Under the pieces are notes generated by a model. That model saw nothing but the letters and a program-made list of their open reading frames with translations. It had not been told where the DNA came from and searched no databases. Both the position numbers and the translations under genes were made by a program. Shown here piece by piece: positions 39,501-51,237 of a stretch of DNA of 64,000 nt. Numbering within the stretch: position 1 is the stretch's first letter; each line of letters opens with the position of its first letter. The DNA is from Aradus depressus. Its lineage: Eukaryota > Arthropoda > Insecta > Hemiptera > Aradidae. The stretch covers positions 4,136,713 through 4,200,712 of the forward strand of contig OY759222.1 of assembly GCA_963662175.1 (NCBI GenBank), read 5' to 3'.

Positions 39501-42010
39501 TGGTTTTTAAAGAAAAGCTAATACTTGGCTGGGGAAGTACATTGCCGGTGATGTATCGAGTGCAGAGGACTAAAAGTAATTTTTTTTAAAAGTACAACCA
39601 AAAAGTACGTTATTGAAAAATGTTTCTTTATTTTTTTTTAAACCTGTAAAATATGGTACAACTTGACTTACCCACTGAATTAAAAATGTCAAAGTTAGTG
39701 CGCGTTGAGCGCCTCTGGTGAAGGATAAAGTCAATATTATGATGCTAGCTCTCCAAGTCCACTTTCAAACTCCTACTTTCAGTTGAACCTGAGACAGCTG
39801 TTTGTAAACCTTTTAATCAGCTGATTTCACTATGTGTTTCTTCATTCACACCAAATTCCGTAAATACCACGATAGGCTGTCCACTGTTCCGGGAGCTACC
39901 ACATACATCGGACAACCCACCGCTATACAACGTCTCAAATCTAGACTTCTCCAGGACATGTTAATTTGAGGACTTTTACCGAATGTTTTCAATATAATAT
40001 TGATGTAAATAGTTAGTATTTCTACTTAGAGACATCCCCTAATCTAATTCCCCATGTTACCCCCACCATGTATAACTTACATTTTGTTGAGCTGGTGAAA
40101 TAAAGGAGAAAAAAACAAAACAAAAAAAAAGAAACGATGTGTTTTTCTGCAAAACACTGACCTGATCACCCTTTTTTTCTTATGTCTACCATTCTGTGTC
40201 CCCCTAGGAAGGAGTGTATCGTGAAGATGTCGAGTCGTGTTAGAGAGATGCGAGAGAAGCTGAGGACGAAACTGGAACAGCTGGGCACCCCAGGCCGCTG
40301 GGATCATATCACTTCCCAGATCGGACTCTTCTCCTACACTGGACTCTCTGGTATGTGTAATATAGTAGAGAACATTAATTAAAGGTTCTGAGGGTGGGAG
40401 AAAGGGCGAGTGGTGGGGGATAGCCACTTGTCGATATCACGCCATGGTTAAAAATCATATTGCATCGAGCTTGAAAAAGAAAACCAAAAAGGTAAATAAT
40501 GGAAGACTTAATTTATTTAACAGTTTGTCCCTTTATTTATTCATAAATAATAATAATGTAACTTTACTCTTGTTAACAACAAAAAATTTCGATACCGAAA
40601 TAAATATTTTTTTTGTATGATATTGACACAGTGATATAGATGTTACAAGCTAGAAAAAAAATATTAATTGTTATTATATGTGTTAGTAAGATGTTGTGGG
40701 ACGATATTTCTCATAAAAATAAAGACGTTTTCTTCCCACTGTTTTATTTTTGACCAGAATCGGTTTTCAACGCAACAGCGTCATCATCAGTGGTACATCT
40801 CACCCACACAGCGTAGCGGTTAAAGGAGAACTGACCGCTTCAGTTCACCACTGATAATGACGCTGTTGCGTTGAAAACCGGTTCTGGTCAAAAATAAAAC
40901 AGTGGGAAGGCAACGTCTTTTATTTCTATAATAATTATTAGTTATAATTAACGATAATAACGTTGATATACCTATATAATGTATTACTTACTTTTTTGTT
41001 AAATTGTTTATAACTTTTTTTAAACTATTTCAACCCCTTTGATACATTACAAAGAGGTTATTTAGGCTCGTATTAACTGTTACCTTTACAATACAAATAC
41101 GCATTTAGTTATTTACCGCAAGAATGATTGAGAAGTCAGTAAAATGTTCGGTGTAGTTTACTCACAGCTGACGTGTATATTCCACGTAAAATATGAAAAT
41201 GTATCGAAACGGAATTTTATATATGGATATCGAACCTCATAAGGACGACATCTATAGATTATAAGGACGACGTCTATAGATTATAAGGACGACATCTATA
41301 GATTATAAGGACAACATCTATAGATTATAAGGACGACATCTATAGATTATAAGGACGACATCTATAGATTTTGAGGCAATTCTTACAAAGAATCAATCCA
41401 GGGGATTTGAAAAAAAAAAATAATTGAAATTTTTAATAAAAGTTGGTATAATGATTGTATCGACATGAAATTTCATATAAGAATTGAGCATGACACCTGG
41501 TGATTTTCAGCTAAATCGACCAAAGAGATGGGTTCAGGGGTAGAGCGAATCATTGTTGAATGCTAATGGTTCGAGCCGGATCCTTGGATTGTTTTTTTTT
41601 TCATATTTATCTTTTATTATGCATAAAATATTAACACTTTTATTATGCACAAAATATTAACACTTTTATTATGCACAAAATATTAACACTTTTATTATGC
41701 ACAACTTTATACTTTCTAAAGACATAGTTTATATACTAATTACACCTATGAAAATTAATGTTATTATGCATTATGCAATGAAATGATTCATAAGGTTTTT
41801 TTTTTTTCAATAATTTAATTGTATATTTATTTAATTTATATTTTTTTTACAGAACGCCAGATAGAATATATTATTTACAAATATCACATATATCTGATGA
41901 AATCTGGCCGAATAAACATTTGCGGTCTGAACGATAGTAACGTTGAGTACGTGGCCGCAGCTATCGATGAGGCCGTGAAAAAGTTCCCATCACCATCCGC
42001 TAGTTTATAA
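27578..42010 (+). CDS. GOT1: Aspartate aminotransferase, cytosolic type, nine exons
   Basis: PLP-dependent enzyme that exchanges amino groups between aspartate/2-oxoglutarate and oxaloacetate/glutamate (malate-aspartate shuttle). Exons: 27578-27689, 27769-27950, 28031-28139, 29808-29900, 33446-33570, 38586-38736, 39025-39190, 40208-40350, 41853-42010. All have GT/AG borders and continuous phase, giving 412 residues, the family's usual length. Visible signatures: [25 protein letters not shown] (Trp stacking on PLP), [33 protein letters not shown] with the PLP lysine (residue 252 here), [10 protein letters not shown] (Arg from the neighbouring subunit), SGRINICGL (Arg380 here, substrate carboxylate). 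Exon 2 must start at 27769 (AAATAG acceptor) to keep VYRTEKG. There is no mitochondrial presequence and CAQSF.KNFGLYNERVGNL is cytosolic-like. A second possible last exon lies at 51080-51237. Confidence 0.95.
29215..29260 (+). ncRNA. Hammerhead-ribozyme-like core in GOT1 intron 3
   Basis: CTGATGA at 29224-29230, then AGGGAGTGATTTCC, which can pair GGGA with TTCC around a short loop, then GAAAC at 29245-29249. Poly-T follows. The family differs from the PLE ends at 7.3 and 23 kb. Confidence 0.45.
30391..30668 (+). repeat. tRNA-derived SINE (family S), full length, diverged
   Basis: Head GAGCGCTGCTAACTCAGAAG, body CCTTCGGATGGGGAGGTTAA, GAGCGCTCTGATAGTAGGCG, tail GCCCCGGCATGATAATTAAC. The A-box is damaged. 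Confidence 0.8.
32035..32352 (+). pseudogene. Jockey-type LINE 3' fragment
   Basis: Reads [38 protein letters not shown] and a stop after LVYNMLSQ at 32341, followed by AATAAAAG and a T run. This is the very C-terminus and tail of a jockey-group reverse transcriptase. Confidence 0.75.
32362..32635 (-). repeat. tRNA-derived SINE (family S), full length
   Basis: Minus strand: the head begins GGGGCGTTGGTAGCTCAGAG (A-box). The B-box region is GAGGGTTCGAAATTCGGC, and the tail reads GCCCGGGCATAAGTCACAAT on the minus strand. Inserted directly behind the jockey fragment tail. Confidence 0.9.
33000..33400 (+). repeat. Dispersed repeat family R copy
   Basis: AATTTCATGTCTTGCGACC, ACGATTACTCCCGAAAGAAT, GAATGTATCGACACGAAATT and a poly-G stretch near 33273. 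It ends about 45 bp before GOT1 exon 5. Confidence 0.6.
34225..34335 (+). repeat. Decayed Penelope-like end (second family)
   Basis: ACCACTGATGATACCGGTTC, then TCTGGTCTAAAATAAGACAG and GTGGGAAGACATCATC, match the inverted pair at 40.7-40.9 kb. The segment that would hold hammerhead stem II and GAAAC is deleted. Confidence 0.5.
34535..35640. repeat. Two GC-rich blocks around an AT-rich core, possible second SINE or hAT-type element
   Basis: 34590-34760 and 35520-35640 are strongly GC-rich in an AT-rich intron. On the minus strand the first block has GCGGGTTTGAATTCTGCCC, resembling a pol III B-box, and ends in poly-A after AATAAGGCCC. CAGGGCCCGGGCCC at 34721 faces the complement CAGGGTCGGGCCCC at about 35528-35541, possible inverted ends. 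No matching target duplication was found, so the type is open. Confidence 0.35.
35690..36190 (-). repeat. Dispersed repeat family R copy
   Basis: CATTACATCGGCAGTTATTG, GGCTGAAAGTCAACAG, CATTACAGCGGCAGTTATTA and AAATTTCGTGTC show two R modules in reverse order. The end TTAGCTGGGAAGTAAAAA is the R terminal phrase. Confidence 0.6.
36191..38585 (+). other. GOT1 intron 5, 3' half: poly-T, SINE tail scrap, 52-bp repeat
   Basis: A poly-T run lies at about 36366-36389. A SINE S tail fragment is at 36499-36545 (complement of GCCCGGGCATGAATAC). A 52-bp unit (GGAGAAGGAACAGAAGTGGT) occurs three times at 37049, 37101 and 37153. CAGGGTGTCTAAGCAACTGA at 37537 resembles the end of a DNA transposon, with no partner found. 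A family R scrap is at 38440-38500. Confidence 0.55.
39235..39560 (+). repeat. Dispersed repeat family R copy in GOT1 intron 7
   Basis: ACGGAATTTCATGTTTTTCA, AATTTTCAGTGAAATCTG and GCTGGGGAAGTACATTGCCG. Confidence 0.55.
39800..40135 (+). repeat. Probable LINE 3' UTR with A-rich tail, upstream of GOT1 exon 8
   Basis: The sequence ends in GAAATAAAGGAGAAAAAAAC and further A runs, the form of a LINE 3' tail. A short upstream stretch may be coding remnant, but no motif is firm. Confidence 0.35.
40715..40930. repeat. Inverted pair of Penelope-like ends with hammerhead-like cores
   Basis: 40715-40795 and 40847-40930 are about 80-bp inverted copies: GACCAGAATCGGTTTTCAAC against its complement GTTGAAAACCGGTTCTGGTC. 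Each arm holds CTGAT(G/A)A, then ACGC-TGTT-GCGT, a perfect 4-bp hairpin, then GAAAAC: a hammerhead-like order. The 51-bp spacer is all that separates the arms, so almost the whole element body has been lost. Confidence 0.65.
41180..41540 (+). repeat. Family R copy with internal 22-bp tandem repeat
   Basis: GGACGACATCTATAGATTAT repeats about six times at a 22-bp step between 41243 and 41372, inside R phrases (CCTCATAAGGACGACATC, TGTATCGACATGAAATTTCA). A 25-bp repeat (TATTAACACTTTTATTATGC) follows at 41625-41705. Confidence 0.7.
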
Positions 42011-51079: not shown

Positions 51080-51237
51080 AACGGCAGGTGGACCATCTGA
51101 TCTACTGGTACCACGTCTACCTGCACCGGTCAGGGTACATCAGTCTATGCGGCCTCACTGAAGACAATATGGACTACGTAGCACAGGCCATCTCCAATAC
51201 CATCAAGGAGTACCCCTCCCAAGAGTGTCAACATTAA
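51080..51237 (+). CDS. GOT1: Alternative or orphan terminal exon of GOT1, substrate Arg replaced by Tyr
   Basis: After a good acceptor (TTTCTTTCAG) the frame reads RQVDHLIYWYHVYL, then HRSGYISLCGLTEDN and ends at TAA 51235-51237. It aligns along its whole length with GOT1 exon 9 (41853-42010). Both are 158 bp, enter in the same phase (splitting the first Glu codon) and end in a stop; about 24 of 52 residues are identical. AATAAA follows at 51240-51245. The conserved SGRIN has become SGYIS: the arginine that binds the substrate alpha-carboxylate in all standard aspartate aminotransferases is tyrosine. No other GOT1 exon copy was found between 42 and 51 kb. It may be a mutually exclusive last exon giving a 412-residue isoform with altered or lost activity. 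Alternatively it is a relic of a second gene, but the open frame and intact splice/polyadenylation signals argue against decay. Confidence 0.8.

Follow-up and report, generated by a model that had tools for sequence, protein, structure and literature searches.

A candidate second last exon of GOT1 in Aradus depressus with tyrosine in place of a substrate-binding arginine

Introduction

Tandem alternative terminal exons are already known. For human genes, the excerpts that we used of one survey report 236 tandem duplicated exon substitution events, of which 77 are C-terminal, and state that ligand-binding residues are mostly kept in these swaps (PMC9741552). One of them affects ACOX1, where the swapped region has 55 amino acids and 28 of these are conserved. 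In Drosophila, the sulfotransferase gene pip is described, also in excerpt, as having tandem homologous terminal exons in eight repeated clusters (PMC9013439). Here we describe a 64,000-nucleotide stretch of the genome of the hemipteran insect Aradus depressus (contig OY759222.1, positions 4,136,713 to 4,200,712), which we will refer to as the window. The window contains the gene for cytosolic aspartate aminotransferase (GOT1). Starting 9 kb downstream of the canonical last exon of this gene (exon 9a), and on the same strand, is a second candidate last exon (exon 9b), which encodes tyrosine instead of the arginine that binds the alpha-carboxyl group of the substrate.

Like the human C-terminal exon swaps, 9a and 9b are homologous tandem exons with a matching frame, and they would exchange one end of the protein; their identity (24 of 52 amino acids) resembles that reported for ACOX1. 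Unlike in those swaps, as far as the excerpts describe them, exon 9b (a predicted exon) replaces the substrate-binding arginine itself. Since ligand-binding residues are mostly kept in the human swaps, exon 9b would be a noteworthy exception if it is used. Similarly, pip and GOT1 are both insect enzyme genes with tandem homologous terminal exons, but GOT1 has just two such exons, and one of them alters an active-site residue. It is unusual for a central enzyme to have a substrate-binding residue swapped. In the open-licence literature, we found no earlier report of alternative last exons in GOT1 or of a natural change at this arginine.

Forms of aspartate aminotransferase that lack catalytic activity have been considered before. 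In yeast, according to the portion of the report that we used, the R387E and K255E mutants of Aat2 are aspartate auxotrophs in which Aat2 still binds the ribosome and stress signalling is normal (PMC9191892). R387E changes the equivalent of pig Arg386, so the signalling role of Aat2 survives the loss of this residue. (The change was engineered in yeast, whereas in A. depressus it lies in a natural second exon.) GOT1L1, a vertebrate relative of GOT1, is described in the excerpts as having no aspartate racemase activity in one test, and it may be a structural protein of the sperm central apparatus, although its authors consider this assignment uncertain (PMC4282708, PMC12297659). GOT1L1 is a separate gene, whereas exon 9b would belong to a splice form.

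Results and Discussion

Two last exons for one GOT1 gene

The window has a complete GOT1 gene on the forward strand, at 27578-42010, with eight shared exons and exon 9a (Table 1). Exons 1-8 form an open reading frame of 412 codons with either 9a or 9b. The best sequence matches of the protein in the Protein Data Bank are cytosolic aspartate aminotransferases. The Pfam domain Aminotran_1_2 (PF00155) covers residues 30-398 and scores 264.5 bits with 9a and 258.4 bits with 9b. The body of the protein, upstream of the last exon, deviates from the family at just 2 of 139 near-invariant positions, and the nearest body among the matches listed is from Ranatra chinensis (70%). The residues that bind the cofactor pyridoxal phosphate (PLP), which are Lys258, Asp222, Tyr225, Arg266, and Asn194 in the numbering of the pig enzyme, are all present and are all encoded by the shared exons.

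An earlier note on this DNA proposed that the two last exons agree in length, phase, and stop position, and they do: each has 158 bp, is preceded by an AG acceptor, is in phase 1 after exon 8, and ends with TAA. The protein identity of about 46% that was given then is also what we obtained, and 84 of the 158 nucleotides are identical. The exons find each other by tblastn with E values of 9e-14 and 3e-13, and their likeness is far above chance. They are homologous, lie on one strand, and share phase and frame, as tandem terminal exons do. The intronic flanks of 9a and 9b have no matching similarity at the acceptors; just one match between the flanks is notable, a stretch of 29 bases with 83% identity whose two copies are on opposite strands.

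Our comparison set for the family ("relatives") consists of insect proteins, the top 120 among 4704 that have E values up to 1e-100. The tail encoded by 9a scores better than the 9b tail against 116 of the 120 relatives, 9b scores better against 3, and there is one tie. This marks 9a as the canonical exon and 9b as the copy that diverged. At residue 380, 9a encodes arginine (CGA) and 9b encodes tyrosine (TAC). Alignment to the pig cytosolic enzyme, which is ungapped in that block (with an offset of +6), places residue 380 at Arg386 and bears out the earlier claim that SGR has become SGY at the arginine that binds a substrate carboxylate. All of the relatives have arginine in this column, and only 9b has tyrosine.

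The signals around 9b are mixed. Its acceptor had been described as strong, which was overstated: 10 of the 17 positions from -20 to -4 are pyrimidines, and the other eight acceptors of the gene have 6 to 13. The statement that AATAAA follows at once is correct. Because this motif starts one base past the stop codon, the 3' untranslated region (UTR) of a 9b message would have only some tens of bases. Downstream of 9a, AATAAA first occurs at 42397, which is 387 nucleotides past the stop codon, and others come later. By chance, AATAAA occurs about twice per kb here.

The residue that is replaced

In the excerpts that we used, the substrate is said to be held by its two carboxylates, which bind to Arg386 and Arg292; Arg386 (R375 in a newer numbering of the E. 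coli enzyme) binds the alpha-carboxyl group (PMC11286295, PMC6411801). A published list of 16 first-shell active-site residues, also seen in excerpt, spans Ile17 to Arg386 (PMC3823064). Exon 9 starts at pig residue 367, and Arg386 is the only one of the 16 that it encodes. So the exon swap alters just the grip on the alpha-carboxylate, and the cofactor site is encoded by the shared exons whichever last exon is used. In the 9b form, Arg292 is kept and Arg386 is tyrosine. Because Arg386 is replaced, we do not class the 9b form as an active aspartate aminotransferase. As the near-invariant columns of the fold are mostly kept, its residues are those of a pseudoenzyme. The identical change, R386Y, was reportedly made and studied in the E. 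coli aspartate aminotransferase by Danishefsky et al. in 1991, with a rate loss of more than 5 orders of magnitude. (This is a related enzyme, but a laboratory mutant.)

Exon 9b and the rest of the genome

Does 9b belong to another gene? The earlier note had allowed that it might be the end of a full second GOT1 gene. We found no further GOT1 exons in the window using tblastn with E values up to 10; the leftover matches have E values of at least 0.07 and are short and scattered. We also searched the genome (698 Mb in 74 contigs, with only the best candidates scored). On the contig that contains the window, there are ten matches, and these are precisely the ten exons of the window's GOT1 gene. 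Given that no further GOT1 exons were found around 9b, it does not resemble the final exon of another complete gene, and within the reach of these searches we rejected that explanation. None of the open reading frames of at least 75 codons between 9a and 9b resembles a further exon of GOT1 or any evident gene, as judged without a family library. Finally, a genome search with the tail alone (E values up to 1) gave five matches: 9a, 9b, the tails of two further GOT1 copies on contig C2 that are described below, and one chance match with stop codons.

Elsewhere in the genome, the search with GOT1 gave three matches on contig C2 and twelve weaker matches on contig C4. Those on C4 form two adjacent clusters of exons (C4:23561022-23584183, reverse strand) that are 35-52% identical to GOT1 and are probably a tandem pair of GOT2 genes. 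Contig C74 (17,811 bp) has the mitochondrial genes of an insect. Among the 120 best matches shown for its COX1, the nearest are from true bugs, led by Micronecta sahlbergii at 88%, which fits a true bug that likely has no close relative among the sampled species.

The first of the two GOT1 copies on C2, which we call C2A, is at C2:23706735-23707958 on the reverse strand. It has no introns and an open reading frame of 413 amino acids from the first methionine. The second, C2B, is at C2:2610287-2612232 on the forward strand and has one interruption, which starts with GT, ends with AG, and is not at the position of any intron of the window's gene. Neither copy has the introns of the window's gene. 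A tree that includes 40 relatives shows C2A and C2B as sisters (support of 100/97) that group with the window's gene (99/94). Together, these features suggest that the two copies likely arose by one retroposition that was followed by a duplication.

Both copies have lost key active-site residues. C2A has Arg292 replaced by glutamate, Ser296 by leucine, and His143 by tyrosine. In C2B, the catalytic Lys258 is replaced by serine, Trp140 by serine, Tyr225 by phenylalanine, and His143 by tyrosine. The near-invariant positions of the body deviate at 33 of 139 (C2A) and 26 of 139 (C2B). Nevertheless, the ratio of nonsynonymous to synonymous changes is about 0.05 on the branches to C2A and C2B, and neutrality is rejected (p = 2e-5 and 2e-6, with saturated branch lengths that are at the set limit). 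Since both copies were under purifying selection despite the losses in their active sites, this lineage has more than once retained a GOT1 protein in which a key active-site residue is missing.

Selection on exon 9b and its age

Exon 9b keeps 9 of the 11 near-invariant columns of the tail and 15 of the 17 strongly conserved ones; the changed near-invariant positions are 376 and 380. For 42 of 46 residues of 9b, the same residue is found among the relatives. We simulated neutral mutation from 9a or from C2B until the number of residue changes was the same as in 9b, and we kept the tails without stop codons (1139 of 4000 runs from 9a and 1455 of 4000 from C2B). None of these tails, from either starting point, reached the score of 9b against the family profile, and none kept 15 of the 17 strongly conserved columns. 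(For 9 of the 11 near-invariant columns, the counts were 11 from 9a and 35 from C2B.) Unconstrained drift of 9b since its split from 9a is rejected by these simulations. As drift never matched the profile score of 9b, this exon was probably under protein-level constraint during most of the time since the split.

How old is 9b? Position 369 is aromatic in all four tails from this genome (tyrosine in 9a and 9b, phenylalanine in C2A and C2B) and in none of the relatives. This shared aromatic residue favors a duplication of the exon within the lineage. We also considered that 9b might be an old exon that is common to insects, but this is unsupported: the relatives all have arginine at residue 380, and a protein search with the tail alone gave no match. 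Other rare residues of the tail conflict. Leu383 and Met391 are shared by 9b and C2B, Asp388 by 9a and C2A, and Glu389 by C2A and C2B. None of the groupings that we tested for the tail tree is rejected (p = 0.25 to 0.45). As likely retrocopies, C2A and C2B could have recorded which tail was present in their source message, but given these conflicts and the undecided tree, we draw nothing from their tails about past splicing.

How might exon 9b be used?

Our best explanation, to which we give just under even chances, is that 9b arose by a lineage-specific duplication of the last exon and likely serves as an alternative last exon. Its product is predicted to be a crippled GOT1 subunit that binds PLP and forms dimers. 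Exon 8 could join 9a or 9b in frame, with the choice of splice site and polyadenylation site deciding between them. To make the 9b message, 9a and its polyadenylation sites would be skipped and position 40350 would be spliced to 51080. Tyrosine in place of the arginine that holds the alpha-carboxylate would cripple the predicted aminotransferase activity. The shared exons encode Lys258, Arg292, and the rest of the active-site residues on the list, so a subunit with the 9b tail would retain PLP binding, dimerize with a 9a subunit, and lend its Arg292. In the aspartate aminotransferase dimer, Arg292 is lent across the subunit interface. A mixed dimer could then have one working site, with the 9b subunit lending Arg292 to its 9a partner. 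Alternatively, the 9b subunit might be non-catalytic in the manner of yeast Aat2 at the ribosome.

If 9b is used, then a single choice of splice and polyadenylation site would disable the grip on the alpha-carboxylate and keep the cofactor, the fold, and dimerization. It would be a natural separation-of-function isoform for the non-catalytic roles of cytosolic aspartate aminotransferase that were proposed from point mutants in yeast. A broader and more doubtful proposal is that this lineage has two independent routes to enzyme-dead GOT1 subunits: the switch to 9b, and the two further copies, of which C2B lacks the catalytic lysine and C2A has glutamate in place of Arg292. The choice of splice site would then turn an enzyme of the malate-aspartate shuttle into a non-catalytic partner for signalling or structure.

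Several observations weigh against the use of 9b as an alternative last exon. It lies 9 kb downstream, behind putative polyadenylation signals of 9a, and its own acceptor is average. At the local density, an AATAAA within 30 nucleotides of the stop codon has about a 6% chance of occurring. The best tail tree (47 columns) pairs 9a with C2A (support of 96/78) rather than with 9b. A search of 5.8 billion proteins for a tail like that of 9b gave two candidates and no match, with the caveat that alternative last exons may be absent from predicted proteomes. And in a codon model with four sequences, neutrality on the 9b branch is not rejected under any of three topologies (p = 0.16, 0.66, and 0.12), a consequence of saturation at synonymous sites. 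Exon 9b may have lost its function late. So, of the earlier proposal that 9b encodes a selected isoform, selection on the protein in the past is backed by the simulations, and present constraint is not, with branch-test p values from 0.12 to 0.66.

The main rival is that 9b is a relic. It might have arisen long ago as a duplicate of the last exon, or be what survives of a duplicated gene at its end; selection would have acted on it in the past, splicing would have ceased, and the tyrosine would be a sign of early decay. We consider this a lesser but substantial possibility. The codon test allows neutral evolution of 9b over about 0.6 to 0.8 substitutions per codon, the near-invariant positions 376 and 380 are both altered, and no protein like it was found elsewhere among the 5.8 billion. 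Also, if only stop codons are counted, the open frame would survive 5% neutral divergence with a probability of 0.66. At 0.2 substitutions per site, though, this falls to 0.29, and frameshifts are not yet counted. In 9b, the open frame, acceptor, exact length, and stop codon are all intact, and so are most of the strongly conserved columns. Its G+C content is still 51%, compared to 36-40% in its flanks. Decay would also have needed two base changes to turn a CGY arginine codon into a tyrosine codon.

The tyrosine might instead suit a ligand that lacks the alpha-carboxylate or has another group there, so that the 9b form would be enzymatically active, but on another substrate or in another reaction. 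We think this is improbable. Enzymes of subfamily I-alpha are said, in the excerpt that we used, to have repeatedly swapped specificity (PMC3823064). All of the cofactor residues that we checked are retained in the 9b form, and the residue at this position is tyrosine rather than a random one. But the genes of the neighborhood name no substrate. To our knowledge, Arg386 is kept in the specificity swaps that are known from this subfamily. And Arg386 is said, in the part of the source that we used, to hold the carboxylate of aromatic as well as dicarboxylic substrates (PMC6411801). We favor a crippled partner or a moonlighting subunit over a new substrate. It is very unlikely that 9b is used just for its short 3' end, for control of the message or as a tissue-specific polyadenylation site, with the altered protein as a by-product. 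The contrast in the lengths of the 3' UTRs would fit, but a role of the UTR alone does not explain the constraint on amino acids that the simulations indicate. The candidate alternative last exon, with a crippled subunit as its product, is the reading that we prefer.

Other features of the window

Table 1. Features of the window, numbered from its first nucleotide
Feature	Position	Strand	Remarks
Tandem repeat, 168-bp unit	16351..17374		6.1 copies, 99% alike
Tandem array, 109-bp unit	19025..20557		14 copies, 97% matches
GOT1 exon 1	27578..27689	+	Start codon, open frame, donor GTATGT
GOT1 exon 2	27769..27950	+	Part of assembled gene model
GOT1 exon 3	28031..28139	+	Part of assembled gene model
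GOT1 exon 4	29808..29900	+	Part of assembled gene model
GOT1 exon 5	33446..33570	+	Part of assembled gene model
GOT1 exon 6	38586..38736	+	Codes for the PLP lysine, residue 252 (pig Lys258)
GOT1 exon 7	39025..39190	+	Codes for Arg286 (pig Arg292)
GOT1 exon 8	40208..40350	+	Donor GTATGT, phase 1, joinable to 9a or 9b
GOT1 exon 9a (canonical), encoding Arg380 (pig Arg386)	41853..42010	+	Tail nearer to the family than that of 9b
Exon 9b, candidate second last exon, with Tyr380	51080..51237	+	Length, phase, and stop as in 9a
Codon TAC for Tyr380, at the position of pig Arg386	51136..51138	+	
AATAAA, possible polyadenylation signal of 9b	51239..51244	+	Followed by a run of T
PCO_ADO-type thiol dioxygenase gene (PF07847)	53169..54029	+	Next gene
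Tandem array, 20-bp unit	57032..57507		24 copies, 99% matches
Pao-type retrotransposon domains	58515..63864		In two long open frames

The gene after GOT1, for a thiol dioxygenase, begins about 1.9 kb past exon 9b. Further downstream, two long open frames, which were scanned separately, have the Pao-type retrotransposon domains DUF1759, Peptidase_A17, DUF5641, and integrase. The two arrays with 109-bp and 20-bp units are near-perfect tandem repeats. In the 168-bp repeat, each unit contains a piece of a coding exon that is similar to transporters (ZIP-like, by eye) and a GTAACC donor, and a CCTAG acceptor precedes the first copy only.

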